Source: Chloroflexota bacterium
Lineage (GTDB): Bacteria > Chloroflexota > Anaerolineae > Aggregatilineales > Phototrophicaceae
Direction: 5' to 3'
NCBI GenBank assembly: GCA_016223085.1
Contig: JACRPS010000004.1
Span: 62,001-126,000, forward strand
Length of the DNA stretch: 64,000 bases
Of this stretch, positions 56,730 through 64,000 are shown piece after piece. Both the position numbers and the translations under genes were made by a program. Under the pieces are notes generated by a model, which had not been told where the DNA came from, made no database searches, and saw only the letters and a program-made list of their open reading frames with translations. The first letter of the stretch is position 1. Every line of letters begins with the position of its first letter.

Positions 56730-56774
56730 AAACCGCGCGCTGAAAGTTAGTTTTATATGGCAAAGGAGTTTCCG

Positions 56775-58049
56775 ATGAAGCCCAAGAAGGTTATGTTACT
56801 GGCGGTCGTGGCGCTGCTGCTGGCGCTGTTTTCGACCGCCGCACTGGCGCAGGATGTCGTCGAACTGACGATGGGTTCCTGGCGCGTGGACGACGTGGCG
56901 CAGATGCAGGTCATTCTGGATGCGTTTACCGCCGAGCATCCCAACATCAAGATCACGTTCGACCCCACCAACCCACCGGACTACAACGCCACGCTGCGGA
57001 CGCAGCTGGAAGGCGGCACCGCGCCCGATCTGTTCTACCTGCGCTCGTATGCCACGTCGCGCCAACTGTTTGAAGAAGGCTACCTCGAGCCGTTGAGCGA
57101 CCTGCCCGGCCTGATGGAAAACTTCACGCCGGAAGCTCGCGCGCCCTGGTCAACCGAAGACGGCGTGCCCTACGGCGTGCCCTTTATCGCTGTGTCACAT
57201 GGCGTATATTACAACGTTGACCTGTTTAACGAACTCGGTATCGAAATACCGACCACCTGGGAAGAACTGATTGCCGCGGCGCAGCAGATCAAGGACGCGG
57301 GTTACGTGCCGTTTGCCAACGCCAGCGGTGACGAGTGGACGATTGCCGAAATTGTGTTTATGAACCTCGCGCCGAACTTCATCGGCGGCTACGAAGGCCG
57401 CCAGGCATACCTGAATGGCGAACGCTGCTTCAACGACCCCAACGCCGTCGCCGCGTTCCAGGCCGTCGCCGACCTCGCCCCCTTCCTGCCGGAAGGCCAG
57501 GAAGCCCTGACCTACTACGACAGCCAGCAGTTGTTTCTGATGGGCGAAGCCGCCATGTGGCTGGGCGGCTCGTGGGACATCCCGTTCTTCGAGAGCGAAG
57601 AACCCGATTTTGAGTGGAGTGTTTTTGCCGTGCCCGCTAAGGAAGGCCAGGAAATGCAGTACGTGACCTTCCACATGGACGCCGGCATGGGACTGAACTC
57701 CGCTTCCGAACACAAGGAAGAAGCGAAGGTGTTCCTGGAATGGATGACCACGCCGGAATTTGCCAAGCTGATGGCCGATAACCTGCCCGGTTTCTTCCCC
57801 ATCAGTAAGGAGCCGGTGACACTGGCGAACGAACACGCCAACACCTTCCTGGCGCTCAATGATGGGCGCGGGCTGGATGTGCGCTGGGCGTGGGAAGGCC
57901 TGCTGGACGGCCAGCCGGATGGTTACACGCTGATGCAGAACGGCGCGCTGGCCGTGATCGCGGGCGAACAGACACCGCAGGAAGCCGCCGACGCGCTCCA
58001 GGAAGGGCTGGCGCAGTGGTTTGAACCGGCCCAGAACTGCGCGCAGTAA
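56775..58049 (+). CDS. Sugar ABC substrate-binding protein
   Basis: Solute-binding protein of 424 aa with a Sec signal peptide (KPKKVMLLAVVALLLALFSTAALAQ) and the family-1 body (DLFYLRSYATSRQLFEEGY, MWLGGSWDIPFF). ATG at 56775 has AAAGGAG nine bases upstream; ATG 56757 is too close to any ribosome site. It is followed by two permease genes and a URO-D-like gene, forming the third sugar ABC set in the window. The substrate is unknown. Confidence 0.93.
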   Translation: MKPKKVMLLAVVALLLALFSTAALAQDVVELTMGSWRVDDVAQMQVILDAFTAEHPNIKITFDPTNPPDYNATLRTQLEGGTAPDLFYLRSYATSRQLFEEGYLEPLSDLPGLMENFTPEARAPWSTEDGVPYGVPFIAVSHGVYYNVDLFNELGIEIPTTWEELIAAAQQIKDAGYVPFANASGDEWTIAEIVFMNLAPNFIGGYEGRQAYLNGERCFNDPNAVAAFQAVADLAPFLPEGQEALTYYDSQQLFLMGEAAMWLGGSWDIPFFESEEPDFEWSVFAVPAKEGQEMQYVTFHMDAGMGLNSASEHKEEAKVFLEWMTTPEFAKLMADNLPGFFPISKEPVTLANEHANTFLALNDGRGLDVRWAWEGLLDGQPDGYTLMQNGALAVIAGEQTPQEAADALQEGLAQWFEPAQNCAQ

Positions 58050-58067
58050 CCAGCTATCGTTCCGCGT

Positions 58068-58098
58068 GCAGGGGTGATCGGCAGCCGGTCGCCCCTGC
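58068..58098. repeat. GCAGGGGTGA hairpin between binding protein and permease genes
   Basis: GCAGGGGTGA (58068-58077) and TCGCCCCTGC (58089-58098) pair over 10 bp with one G-T wobble. It lies 18 bases after the binding-protein stop and 20 before the permease start, the same place as the 30-bp elements at 1349 and 42912 in the other two ABC operons. Confidence 0.7.
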
Positions 58099-58118
58099 CC
58101 TGTTGTTGGGCAAATCTC

Positions 58119-59093
58119 ATGGCCGATACCGTGCTTCAACCCGTTCGCGTCCGTGAACAGCCTGCCGTCCGCTGGGACGTGCAGCGCCGCCGGACGTGGA
58201 TCCTGTTCCTCGTCCCGGCGGTCGCCGTTTATACTGTCTTTATGGCGTTCCCCCTGTTTAACTCGATGCGCCTCAGCCTGTACCAGGGCACGGGGCTGAC
58301 GCCGGAAACTTACGTCGGTCTTGCTAATTACACCGAGTTATTCACCAATCCACTATGGCGCGACCGCTTCCTGAATGCGCTGGGCAACACCTTTGTGTTT
58401 TTTGCCATCCACATGCTGGTGCAGAACACGTTAGGGCTGCTGTTCGCCACGCTCCTCAGCAACACCCGCCTGCGTGGGCGCAACCTCTACCGCGCGATTG
58501 TGTTCCTGCCAGCCACGCTGTCGGTGCTGGTGACGGGCTTCCTGTGGACGCTGATTCTCAATCCACGCTGGGGGATGCTCAACCAACTGCTGGAAGGCGT
58601 GGGGCTGGGCGCGCTGGCGCGTCCCTGGCTGGGTGACACGAATCTGGCGCTGCCGGTGATTTCGCTGGTCTCGTCATGGCAGTGGGTCGGCCTGCCGACC
58701 ATGATGTTCCTCGCCGGGCTATTAACCATCTCTGATGAGCTGCTGGAAGCGGCACGGGTGGACGGCGCCAATCCCTGGCAGGTGTTCTGGAAGATCAAAC
58801 TGCCGCTGCTGAAGCCGGTCATCGGCATTGTCTCGGTGCTGACGTTCGTCGGCAATTTCAATGCCTTCGACGTGATTTTTGCAATGGCCGGGGCGCGCGG
58901 CGAACCCGGTTATGCCACGGATCTGCTGGCGACCTTCTTCTACCGCACTGCCATCGCCGGCGAACACCCGGTCGCCGAACCGAATATGGGCATCGGCGCA
59001 GCGGTCGCCACCATCACGTTTCTCATCCTGCTGACCGGCGTCTCCCTGTGGCTGATCCTGGGCCGGGAACGTGACGAAGCTACCGCAGCCTAG
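58119..59093 (+). CDS. Sugar ABC permease (MalF type)
   Basis: Membrane permease of 324 aa, normal size, six helices, EAA loop LEAARVDGANPWQVFWKIKLP. The start at 58119 (MADTVLQPVRV) is chosen over an upstream ATG at 58074, which lies within the hairpin element. Third importer of the window. Confidence 0.92.
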   Translation: MADTVLQPVRVREQPAVRWDVQRRRTWILFLVPAVAVYTVFMAFPLFNSMRLSLYQGTGLTPETYVGLANYTELFTNPLWRDRFLNALGNTFVFFAIHMLVQNTLGLLFATLLSNTRLRGRNLYRAIVFLPATLSVLVTGFLWTLILNPRWGMLNQLLEGVGLGALARPWLGDTNLALPVISLVSSWQWVGLPTMMFLAGLLTISDELLEAARVDGANPWQVFWKIKLPLLKPVIGIVSVLTFVGNFNAFDVIFAMAGARGEPGYATDLLATFFYRTAIAGEHPVAEPNMGIGAAVATITFLILLTGVSLWLILGRERDEATAA

Positions 59094-59103
59094 GGGGCAC
59101 ACC

Positions 59104-59934
59104 ATGAGCAGACGTTTTCAACCGGGTATACTGGCCGCGCATGGTATCCTCATCCTGTGGTCATTGGTGGTGCTGCTGCCGGTGTGGACGATGCTGATTA
59201 ATTCGGTGAAGCCAAAGCGCGAAATCTTCCGCAATCCGTTTGGCCTTCCGTCAGAATTTAGCTTCGATGGCTACATTAACGCCTGGACGGCGGGCAAGTT
59301 TGACCTGTACTTCCGCAACAGCCTGATTGTCGCCATCGTATCGCTGCTGCTGGTGCTGTTCGTCGGCTCGCTGGCCGCCTACGCGCTGGCAAACTGGCGC
59401 TCACGCGTCTCCAGCTTCCTCTACCTGTACTTTATCGCCGGGCTGATGATTCCGATACGCCTCGGCACGATCAATTTGCTCCAGATCGTGCAGGCGATGG
59501 GCATGGCCGATAAACTCACCAGCCTGATTTTTGTCTACGTGGCGATGGGACTGCCGATTGCGACGTTTGTGCTGACCAGCTTCGTGCGCTCCGTACCGGT
59601 CGAACTGACAGAGGCGGCGCGAATTGATGGCGCCAGCGAGTGGCGCATTTATCGCTCAGTGACTCTGCCGCTGATTCGCCCGGCGCTGGCGACAGTGACA
59701 ATCTTCAACCTGCTGCCGATCTGGAATGATCTGTGGTTTCCGCTGATCTTCATCCGCAATCAGGAAGCCCGTACCGTAACATTAGGGGTTTCGTTGCTTT
59801 TTGGTCAATATCAGACGGACTGGACACGCGCCTTAAGCGCCCTGTCAATGGCTGCCGTGCCGGTGCTGATCGTCTATCTGCTAATGTCGAGCCAGTTCAT
59901 CAAGGGGCTGACCGCCGGGGCGTTGAAGGGTTAA
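59104..59934 (+). CDS. Sugar ABC permease (MalG type)
   Basis: Membrane permease of 276 aa with six helices and the EAA loop TEAARIDGASEWRIYRSVTLP. ATG at 59104 (MSRRFQPG) follows GGGGG; the longer ATG at 59071 lies inside the upstream gene. Four bases separate its stop from the URO-D-like GTG start, so the downstream gene is translated as part of the operon. Confidence 0.92.
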   Translation: MSRRFQPGILAAHGILILWSLVVLLPVWTMLINSVKPKREIFRNPFGLPSEFSFDGYINAWTAGKFDLYFRNSLIVAIVSLLLVLFVGSLAAYALANWRSRVSSFLYLYFIAGLMIPIRLGTINLLQIVQAMGMADKLTSLIFVYVAMGLPIATFVLTSFVRSVPVELTEAARIDGASEWRIYRSVTLPLIRPALATVTIFNLLPIWNDLWFPLIFIRNQEARTVTLGVSLLFGQYQTDWTRALSALSMAAVPVLIVYLLMSSQFIKGLTAGALKG

Positions 59935-61359: not shown

Positions 61360-64000
61360 ATGGCATTCTCCATAGGTTTCAAACGGGTTGTGGTTGGCAT
61401 TGCGCTGACTTTGCTGGCGGCAGGTGGTTTAAGTATCCACCTCTCCTGGCCAACTGACACGCCGGTTATCCCGACGCTGATGGTACTGCCGACGCAGCCG
61501 GAAGCCGGTGCGCCCGTTTCGACCGTTGCTGCCGCGCCGCCAGTGGTATATACTCCTGTAACGCAGCCGACGGCCACGCTGGGTGTCCCGTCACCAGAGG
61601 CTGCGCCTATCCTGGCGACCCCGAACACCCCGGCGACCGTTCCCAATCAGATTGTCATTACGTTTCAGGCGTCAGCCTCCGCCAGCGATAAAGCGGCATA
61701 TGTTGCGGCGCTGGGCGGCACCATCGTGCAGGAGGTCACCGCGCTCAACAGCGTCGTTGTCAGCCTGCCAGCCGCGAACGCCGCGCTGCTCCCTGCCACT
61801 TCGATCATCGCCGCCAGCGAGCCGGATTATTACGCGGTTGCGCTGGGAGGCGAGGTGAACGATCCGCTTTACCCGCAGCAGTGGCACCTGCCGGTGATTG
61901 GCACGGCGGACGGCTGGGCTGCCGTAACGAGCGCAAGTCCTTCCGTCATTGTCGCCATCGTGGACAGTGGCATCTGCGCCGACCATCCGGATTTAGCCGG
62001 ACGTATCCTGCCCGGTTATGACTTCGTTGATCGTGACGGCCAGCCGCAGGACGCTCTGGGACACGGCTGCGGCGTCGCGGGCATTGTCGCCGCCAATGCC
62101 AGCAATGGCGAAGGCATCGCCGGTATCGCGCCCAACGTTCAAGTTCTGCCGCTGCGTGCGCTCGACTCGCGCGGAATCGGCACATATTCCAACGTGGCGG
62201 CGGCCATCGTTTACGCCGCCGATCACGGCGCAGCAGTCATTAATCTCTCACTCGGCGGTACGACTCCATCAGAGCTGCTACAAAACGCGGTGGATTACGC
62301 CATCGCCAAAGGCGCTCTCGTGATCGCAGCGGCGGGCAACACCGGCGGCGCCGTGCTGTACCCGGCAGCCTATGCGCCAGTGATCGCAGTCGCGTCAGTT
62401 GATTCCAGTTTGCAGCGCAGCCGCTTCAGCAGTTATGGGCCAGAGATTGATCTGTTTGCGCCGGGCGAAAACATTCTGACCACCAGCCACGACGGCGGCT
62501 ACCAGCCGATGACCGGCACCAGTTTTGCCGCGCCGCAGGCCGCCGGTATCGCCGCACTGGAACTGGCGCGCGGGCGGAACTTCATCCCAAACGGCGGTCT
62601 TCTCCGATTCACCGGCGAGGGTGCGCCCGTCGAGCCGACCGCAACTCTCCTTCCCACCACGCCCGCCGCGCCACCGTCTGCCCCGCTCATGCGCAACCCG
62701 GCAGCCGTTTATTGCCTCGATCTCGGCTACCGTTACGAAACCGTACCGGGCATCGGCGGCGGTGACGATGGCCTGTGTGTCTTCCCGGATGGCGACCGCT
62801 GCGAGCAGTGGGACTTTTACGCTGGCAAATGCGGGCAGGCCTATTCGTTCTGCGCCCGGCAGGGTTTGAACACCATCACGCTGAACCGCAGCGACAACTT
62901 CTCTCCGGCCTATGCCGCCTGCGCCGACGCTGCCGGCCACATCGTCGGCACGGTGAATGACCTGTCTGCGCTGGCCGACCGTGCCCAGGGCTGTTATGAC
63001 GGCGTTTGCCCACAGACCGCCGCGCCCGCCAGTCTTGATGTGCCAGTGAACCCGGCGGAAGACCCGGTTTCCCTGGTGCCCGTACCAGCATCGCTCGACT
63101 GGCGTAATTATCAGGGCGGCAACTGGCTGACGGCAGTTCGCAATCAGGGCAGTTGCGGCAGTTGCTGGGCTTTCGCAGCAGTCGGTGTGCTGGAAGCCGC
63201 GCTCAAGATCGGCGCGATCAATGCTGCCTGGAGTCCCGAACCGAATCTCGCCGAACAGTATTTGATTACTTCGGGTTGCGGTGCAGATGCCGGCGACTGC
63301 GCCGGCGGCTGGAGCCACCGCGCCCTCAATTTCATCCGCGATCACGGCATCACCGATGAAGTCTGTATGCCATACCAAGGACAGAACAGTCTGACCTGCT
63401 CCCCCACCTGCTCCGGCCTCACCCGCGCCGACCAGATTGGTTACAGCTACTGGCCGTCGGCGCAGTACATCAAACAAAACCTGGTAGCACGCGGACCAGT
63501 CGTGGTTTACATGCACATCGGCGGCACTTCCGGCGGCTACTGGGATAGCGGCGGCGTCTTCCGCTGCCGCCACGATGCTGCTAGTGACGGCAGCTATAAC
63601 ATAGACCACGCCGTCGTCGCCGTTGGCTACAATGACGCAGGCCGCTACTGGATCATCCGCAACAGTTGGGGCGCGGGCTGGAACGGGGACGGTTATTTTA
63701 AGGTCGGCTACAACGAGTGCAACATTGACAATACGTTTGTCGCCTATGCTCGACAGAATTTGCCGGCGCCGGCATCGCTGGAAGCGGACACTACGACCAC
63801 CGCAACCACCGCCCGCGTCACCTTTAGCTGGCAGGGAAGCCCGCTGCAGACCCGGTATAACTTCCGCATCACGACTGGCGCTGACCCGTCCAGTCCGCCG
63901 CTGGAGGATGCCTCCACCACCAACACCTACTACAGCTACACGTTCGACAGCCCCGGCACGTTTTACTGGCACGTCCGCAGCGCGGATGACAGCGGCGTGA
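61360..64000 (+). CDS. Subtilisin-DUF333-papain dual protease, truncated by window end
   Basis: One open frame of at least 880 residues runs without a stop from ATG 61360 to the window end. It has a signal/anchor helix (about residues 9-26), a Thr/Pro-rich linker and an inhibitor-like propeptide (about 90-165). A subtilisin S8 domain follows with Asp202 (VDSGIC), His235 (GHGCGVAG), oxyanion Asn327 (AAAGN) and Ser388 (GTSFAAP). A DUF333 segment comes next (about 446-545; NPAAVYCLDLGY and CFPDGDRCEQWDFY-like). A papain-type C1A domain (about 575-785) has Gln596, Cys602 (QGSCGSCWAF), His750 (DHAVVAVGY) and Asn768 (NSWG). A fibronectin-like beta region begins near 795. Both active sites look complete. 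It should be secreted or surface bound. Confidence 0.92.
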   Translation, partial: MAFSIGFKRVVVGIALTLLAAGGLSIHLSWPTDTPVIPTLMVLPTQPEAGAPVSTVAAAPPVVYTPVTQPTATLGVPSPEAAPILATPNTPATVPNQIVITFQASASASDKAAYVAALGGTIVQEVTALNSVVVSLPAANAALLPATSIIAASEPDYYAVALGGEVNDPLYPQQWHLPVIGTADGWAAVTSASPSVIVAIVDSGICADHPDLAGRILPGYDFVDRDGQPQDALGHGCGVAGIVAANASNGEGIAGIAPNVQVLPLRALDSRGIGTYSNVAAAIVYAADHGAAVINLSLGGTTPSELLQNAVDYAIAKGALVIAAAGNTGGAVLYPAAYAPVIAVASVDSSLQRSRFSSYGPEIDLFAPGENILTTSHDGGYQPMTGTSFAAPQAAGIAALELARGRNFIPNGGLLRFTGEGAPVEPTATLLPTTPAAPPSAPLMRNPAAVYCLDLGYRYETVPGIGGGDDGLCVFPDGDRCEQWDFYAGKCGQAYSFCARQGLNTITLNRSDNFSPAYAACADAAGHIVGTVNDLSALADRAQGCYDGVCPQTAAPASLDVPVNPAEDPVSLVPVPASLDWRNYQGGNWLTAVRNQGSCGSCWAFAAVGVLEAALKIGAINAAWSPEPNLAEQYLITSGCGADAGDCAGGWSHRALNFIRDHGITDEVCMPYQGQNSLTCSPTCSGLTRADQIGYSYWPSAQYIKQNLVARGPVVVYMHIGGTSGGYWDSGGVFRCRHDAASDGSYNIDHAVVAVGYNDAGRYWIIRNSWGAGWNGDGYFKVGYNECNIDNTFVAYARQNLPAPASLEADTTTTATTARVTFSWQGSPLQTRYNFRITTGADPSSPPLEDASTTNTYYSYTFDSPGTFYWHVRSADDSGV

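Follow-up and report, generated by a model that had tools for sequence, protein, structure and literature searches.

Toward its end, the window (the whole 64,000-nt stretch of Chloroflexota DNA analysed here) carries a gene, starting at position 61360, in which a subtilisin-type (S8) serine peptidase and a papain-type (C1) cysteine peptidase lie in the same chain with a DUF333 segment between them. The question raised by this locus is why two peptidases of different catalytic classes should be made as one polypeptide and whether, as an earlier note on this DNA proposed, one of them could mature the other. Studies of zymogen activation by another protease mostly deal with the two as separate proteins. 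The papain is only one of several second enzymes (“cargos”) found in this position, and the constant part, which the earlier note missed, is the S8 head. Chains with several protease domains (polyserases; PMC1435904) and proteins pairing a constant head with a variable cargo (PVC metallopeptidase toxins; PMC3482391) are already known, going by the available portions of these two papers. A literature search, with subscription papers and preprints outside it, found no description of one subtilase head combined with peptidases of several catalytic types that replace one another.

The protein encoded at 61360

The frame stays open for 986 codons with no internal stop, and its stop codon is at window-equivalent 64318-64320, 320 bases beyond the window (L009:461-3421). 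Its features are:

61360..64000 (+): whole gene of the S8-DUF333-C1 protein, continuing past the window to the stop at window-equivalent 64320 (986 aa)
61387..61443 (+): residues 10-28, hydrophobic segment, putative signal peptide or signal anchor (mean Kyte-Doolittle 2.11)
61471..61494 (+): residues 38-45, PTLMVLPT motif shortly after the hydrophobic segment
61606..61830 (+): residues 83-157, subtilase pro-domain, Fervidolysin_NPro-like (PF22148; strands and a helix, high pLDDT from about residue 91)
61858..62619 (+): residues 167-420, S8 subtilase head, thermitase-like, without about 35 C-terminal thermitase residues (D202, H235, N327, S388; C206, C237)
61975-61977 and 62068-62070: C206 and C237, beside the catalytic Asp and His, respectively
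62620..62688 (+): residues 421-443, Pro/Thr/Ala-rich linker (low model confidence)
62689..62994 (+): residues 444-545, DUF333 (444-489; PF03891), then a probable second, divergent copy (repeated pattern in the models)
62995..63081 (+): residues 546-574, second linker, the presumed place at which the papain would be freed (low pLDDT at 533-558)
63082..63741 (+): residues 575-794, C1 papain (Q596, C602, H750, N768)
63757..64000 (+): residue 800 onward, Ig/Fn3-like region, continuing past the window (PF25788, best stretch 913-982)

The earlier note had read the frame as free of stops from 61360 to the window end, with two intact peptidases in the order S8-DUF333-C1, and allowed for further domains past the window edge; the complete gene agrees on each point, with an Ig-like domain and then the stop in the part beyond. 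The profile search that it proposed detects both peptidase families, so an objection from a missing family fails. Along the chain, Pfam-A matches over the curated cut-offs are a Fervidolysin-type pro-domain (PF22148, 83-138, E 5.8e-6), Peptidase_S8 (PF00082, 195-403, E 3.9e-50, 171.2 bits against a cut-off of 21.8), DUF333 (PF03891, 444-489, E 5.3e-15), Peptidase_C1 (PF00112, 575-794, E 2.6e-41, 142.5 bits against 20.7) and Ig_Rha78A_N (PF25788, best stretch 913-982, E 2.1e-7). All eight active-site residues named earlier are present: D202, H235, S388 and the oxyanion N327 in the S8 domain, and Q596, C602, H750 and N768 in the papain, the latter four with counterparts in the aligned chains L122 and L123. 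At E ≤ 0.001 the papain is the single C1 match in its own genome, which has ten S8 matches. Apparent sugar ABC transporter gene sets, identified by eye, flank the gene (window 56757-59934 and L009:4771-7910) and have no evident connection with it.

For the whole protein, AlphaFold (53-row alignment) gives a model with a mean pLDDT of 73.7 and a pTM of 0.41. Its confidence is high in the pro-domain and S8 domain and intermediate in DUF333 and papain, whereas the linkers and residues 1-90 are modeled with low confidence. The best Foldseek match of the head model is thermitase (1thm, target length 279), with 243 columns at 1.2 A rmsd, 46% identity and E 1.5e-26. The head shares its catalytic residues and a subtilase pro-domain with thermitase and other S8A subtilases, but differs from thermitase in ending about 35 residues earlier, in having cysteines after DSGI and at HGC where thermitase has DSGID and HGT, and in being fused to a second peptidase. 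That the S8 domain is without roughly the last 35 thermitase residues follows from this alignment and agrees with the Pfam match, which stops at profile position 255 of 288. Four stand-alone short heads are equally short, ending 39-43 residues after the catalytic Ser, which argues that the short form is natural and not a by-product of fusion.

Modeled separately (pLDDT 81.4, pTM 0.67), the DUF333-papain part has its best papain-fold match in cathepsin C (1jqp; Z 27.7, 2.9 A, 220 aligned), and the papain sequence matches 3pdf by phmmer (E 7.3e-31). The fold and the Gln/Cys/His/Asn set are those of family C1, the nearest solved members being cathepsins C, X and K, but here a DUF333 segment stands in front, and Inhibitor_I29, a pro-domain common though not universal in C1 peptidases, is absent from the Pfam matches at E up to 1. 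In the predicted models the segment after DUF333 repeats the helix-strand-strand-strand-helix pattern of DUF333, and it is probably a second, divergent copy. Compared by sequence with solved structures, the DUF333 segment yielded nothing beyond designed proteins and marginal hits, and a literature search for DUF333 gave nothing relevant, the apparent match in the available part of PMC10318531 being to DUF3335. DUF333 may serve the papain as a pro-domain or exclusion domain; the structures returned by the fold searches were matches to the papain part.

Recurrence of the domain order, and papains without a head

The earlier note had also suggested looking for the same domain order in other genomes. 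When 61 relatives were searched with the whole protein, S8, DUF333 and C1 were found in one frame in two of them, G013, a member of the same genus whose contig starts within the S8 domain (61% identity across the matched region), and G041, from another family of the same taxonomic order (46% identity). Over 6500 bases G013 is identical to a contig from an Aggregatilineales bacterium MAG, and by the NCBI taxonomy the genus thus belongs to Chloroflexota, Anaerolineae, Aggregatilineales. An assembly artefact is unlikely given the same domain order in two other genomes, and chance, frameshift or misassembly was rejected as an explanation on this ground together with the 986 open codons.

Across all 154 genomes of the taxonomic order, the full DUF333-C1 module is found in four, with an S8 head in the window genome (G000), G013 and G041 and without one in G440. 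In a sample of 400 genomes from the phylum it appears only in G000 and G218, two other matches being without DUF333 by profile. A C1 match is present in 96 of 396 genomes sampled from the class; no S8 match was seen in the 53 C1 frames that were read, a set (50 loci, the window gene and its two relatives outside it) in which some loci were read twice and 12 frames are open-ended at the locus edge and could hide one. A widespread S8-C1 architecture is thus not supported, with none of the 53 C1 frames bearing an S8 domain and the DUF333-C1 module in just four of 154 genomes.

Headless DUF333-papain modules occur in four genomes (G218, G373, G217 and G440), so the papain does not require a fused subtilisin. 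The headless DUF333-C1 gene of G218 has an S8 gene immediately upstream, an arrangement that would invite a “Rosetta stone” interpretation as an operon; that S8 is of the full-length type, both by the tree described below and by its Pfam match (profile position 288 of 288), and the pairing was treated as coincidence. No S8 was seen in the fetched stretches around the modules of G373, G217 and G440. In G217 (L232), two headless DUF333-papain genes stand side by side. In a tree of C1 domains the DUF333-linked papains fall within one starred group of 15, together with six without DUF333, so the DUF333-papain looks like a ready-made module.

A constant S8 head with exchangeable second peptidases

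The head was searched in all 154 genomes of the taxonomic order, and every long frame of the short type was fetched, the criterion being frame length and not cargo. The resulting census comprises 38 chains with at least 300 residues after a short S8 head, 37 of them in the order plus L191 (G186, same class); three chains that end at contig ends (L256, L260 and L213) stand outside it. Cargo was scanned over the first 1000-1100 residues, and over the whole of L194. A second peptidase-like domain follows the head in 36 of the 38. In 30 it is over its Pfam cut-off: S8 in 19, C1 in three, M10 matrixin in three, trypsin-like S1 in two, M23 in two and astacin in one. The remaining six have weaker evidence, four being M23-like (L125 and L129 by sub-threshold Pfam matches, L201 and L206 by an HxH motif only), one carrying a metzincin motif (L128, HEMGHGFGFPH) and one a sub-threshold C39-like match (L208). 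No second peptidase was recognised in L194, a complete chain scanned whole, or in L261, which ends at a contig edge. Ig-like, Fn3, LRR and Big_7 domains are also found among the long chains.

Ten full-length S8 chains with C-terminal extensions, fetched from the same searches and not amounting to all full-length S8s, served as controls. None has a second peptidase (in L230, 1500 of 1809 extension residues were scanned); their extensions hold CAP, Kelch, CBM, SdrD_B or sub-threshold and Ig-like domains. In three full-length chains (L200, L228 and L229) the domains after the protease are of the CAP (SCP-like) type. The contrast is 36 of 38 against none of ten (Fisher p 1e-8), or 30 of 38 against none of ten (7e-6) if only matches over the cut-off are counted, although the rows are related, so that these values convey only its size. 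Short heads also occur alone: in 33 genomes of one genus (g17) there are stand-alone heads in frames of 394-475 aa, one of which (L225) was read in detail, and such heads without cargo imply a role for the head by itself. One further chain (L215:391-1659, minus strand) has a short head and only 71 more residues, in which inspection by eye suggests a dockerin-type repeat.

A tree of 57 S8 domains, from which L213, L262, L263 and L264 were left out as partial or of full-length type, separates 45 short heads from 12 full-length domains by a starred branch (98/93). The 33 genomes with stand-alone heads are represented in it by L225, and the S8 label of L260 depends on resemblance to L192 only. The same division is seen in a pair of cysteines, one four residues after the catalytic Asp (DSGxC) and the other two after the His (HGC): both are present in 43 of the 44 short heads covering the two positions and missing in the sole exception, L209, while neither is found in any of the 12 full-length domains. 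The positions of this pair (C206 and C237 in the window protein) suggest a disulfide next to the active site. The catalytic Asp, His, Asn and Ser are complete in all 44 short heads that cover them, whatever the cargo.

Among cargo-bearing heads, this tree requires no fewer than 14 changes of cargo class, where the minimum for eight classes is seven; the figure is the fewest changes that the head tree allows and not a firm count, the middle of the tree being poorly resolved, with 22 of 54 inner branches open and the bootstrap unsettled. Starred neighbors with differing cargo are found repeatedly: astacin in L199 and S8 in L216 (100/100), M23 in L206 and C39-like in L208 (100/98), S8 in L126 and metzincin-like in L128 (99/95), and M23 in L201 and L129 next to S8 in L253 (100/99). 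These changes, including those between starred sisters, are the basis for regarding the head as constant and the cargo as exchanged. Even if only starred branches are counted, the minimum is two changes for C1, four for M23 and five for S8, and the fusion in G041 may therefore be independent of that in G000 and G013. Cargo is also inherited, since its labels are clustered on the head tree (none of 200 shuffles gave a value as low).

These observations bear on two alternatives. The pairing could be coincidental, the product of functionless domain shuffling through Pro/Thr-rich linkers in large genomes, as the many mobile extracellular domains of the long chains would allow and as labels that are partly inherited along the tree, rather than random, might fit. 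The occurrence of a second peptidase in nearly all short-head chains and in none of the full-length controls speaks against this, even with related rows, and makes it improbable. A role as polymorphic lytic effectors, with the head as a releasing peptidase and the variable C-terminal enzyme directed against neighboring cells, is likewise improbable. The short-head chains do combine a constant N-terminal part with a variable C-terminal domain, an arrangement described, in the accessible text of PMC3482391, for the PVC metallopeptidase; cargo exchange is frequent, and M23 and papain folds can be lytic. In the short-head family, however, the head is a subtilase and most cargos are peptidases themselves, and the neighboring genes, inspected by eye, showed no recognisable toxin delivery system. 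The gene after the S8-C1 gene is a cation transporter-like ORF (also by eye), and the trypsin, matrixin and astacin cargos look like ordinary digestive enzymes.

All 45 short heads with an N-terminus have a hydrophobic segment (mean Kyte-Doolittle ≥ 1.8) N-terminal of the pro-domain. In G041 (L123) a TPR-like region occupies the first ~95 residues (Pfam TPR_19 at its cut-off), and because it precedes the segment, the latter would here be a true membrane crossing with the head outside. This would look like an additional cytoplasmic part of the tandem protease, for sensing or docking. Close to the presumed membrane segment, on its outer side, PTLxxLP(T/S) is found in 17 of 37 cargo-bearing heads with an N-terminus (among them L126, L127, L129, L192 and L252), and several others have a close variant of it. 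The six heads without cargo, one of which is cut by a contig end, do not have the motif. It is possibly a sorting or cleavage signal. Overall, the short-head chains of this order of Chloroflexota (Anaerolineae) make up a family of modular tandem peptidases that are secreted and probably tethered to the membrane.

The boundaries between linker and cargo are less uniform. “LA” followed by V or L stands at the boundary in five of 13 chains examined (L122, L123, L202, L204 and L128), and neither in the window protein nor in the headless G440 protein; as the motif was chosen after seeing four sequences and the boundaries were drawn by eye, it is only a lead, and no shared cleavage motif was established among the 13. 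Two S1 cargos begin with AVIGPDxR directly after the linker, which we take to resemble the mature N-terminus of Mpr-type enzymes.

Possible release and activation of the cargo by the head

For the chances that the head activates or releases the peptidase fused to it, after maturing itself and cutting a linker, an even balance seems the right estimate. The constant unit would consist of a hydrophobic anchor, a Pro/Thr-rich spacer, a subtilase pro-domain and a short, thermitase-like S8 domain with its cysteine pair, and a flexible linker would connect it to a second, exchangeable hydrolase, which in the window protein is the DUF333-papain. After export, the S8 head would mature itself in the usual subtilase way and then cut the linker of its own or a neighboring chain; the second peptidase would thereby be freed and activated, the head itself remaining on the cell.

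Maturation of one peptidase by the other, as the earlier note proposed, becomes more plausible with the same S8 head fused to many unrelated second peptidases. Activation is further favored by the retention of the head's active site whatever the cargo, by the specific pairing of second peptidases with the short head, by the start of the two S1 cargos right after the linker, and by the presence among the cargo types of enzymes that need a foreign protease (Mpr-type S1 and M23A). For the first of these, the available text of PMC10952608 and PMC3166918 describes activation of Bacillus subtilis Mpr through cleavage of its pro-part by the subtilase Bpr, one secreted peptidase thus activating another. 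That system consists of two separate genes acting in trans, whereas the window protein is one chain. For the second, beta-lytic protease (M23A) requires host extracellular proteases for its maturation, according to the accessible part of PMC8715609. The Mpr precedent is not absolute, as partial activity is kept in a strain without Bpr, and this counts against an activating role. So do the DUF333-papain modules without a head in four genomes, the stand-alone heads in 33 genomes of one genus, the many S8 cargos with a pro-domain of their own (for example in L126 and L205) that need no helper, the complete long chain L194 without a recognised second peptidase, and the failure to establish a shared cleavage motif.

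Another way to account for the same chains is that both peptidases stay joined and tethered and digest extracellular protein together, with complementary specificities, as a scavenging enzyme in which no processing takes place. Secreted hydrolases of all kinds serve as cargo, and a digestive enzyme of the surface or a biofilm would fit the linkers and the Ig-like, Fn3, LRR and Big_7 domains. Human polyserase-2 and -3, in the accessible part of PMC1435904, retain several protease domains per chain; polyserases resemble the present family in having several serine protease domains in one chain, released by processing in polyserase-1, and differ in that all are S1 domains, with no mixed catalytic classes and no cargo exchange. 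Joint digestion without processing is rather unlikely: a flexible linker is easily cut by a subtilase, specificities would often not be complementary with S8 enzymes making up half of the cargos, and M23 cargos may act on peptidoglycan rather than protein.

A broader form of the activation proposal, offered more tentatively, is that the clade is a general platform for activation in cis, in which evolution has time and again fitted a surface-bound short subtilase head with new peptidases, from at least six families in all, each of them harmless until freed. If this were true, prokaryotes would have in this platform a single-chain equivalent of zymogen cascades, one in which the cargo is combinatorial. 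Even if the proposed mechanism is wrong, the family remains an unusually strong, repeated pairing of secreted peptidases. If activation by the head does hold, the family would amount to ready-made self-activating protease constructs, and its natural series of C1, S1, S8, M10, M12A and M23 cargos could be used to test the head as a universal activator and could show what the head recognises and how two or more proteases stay silent until export.
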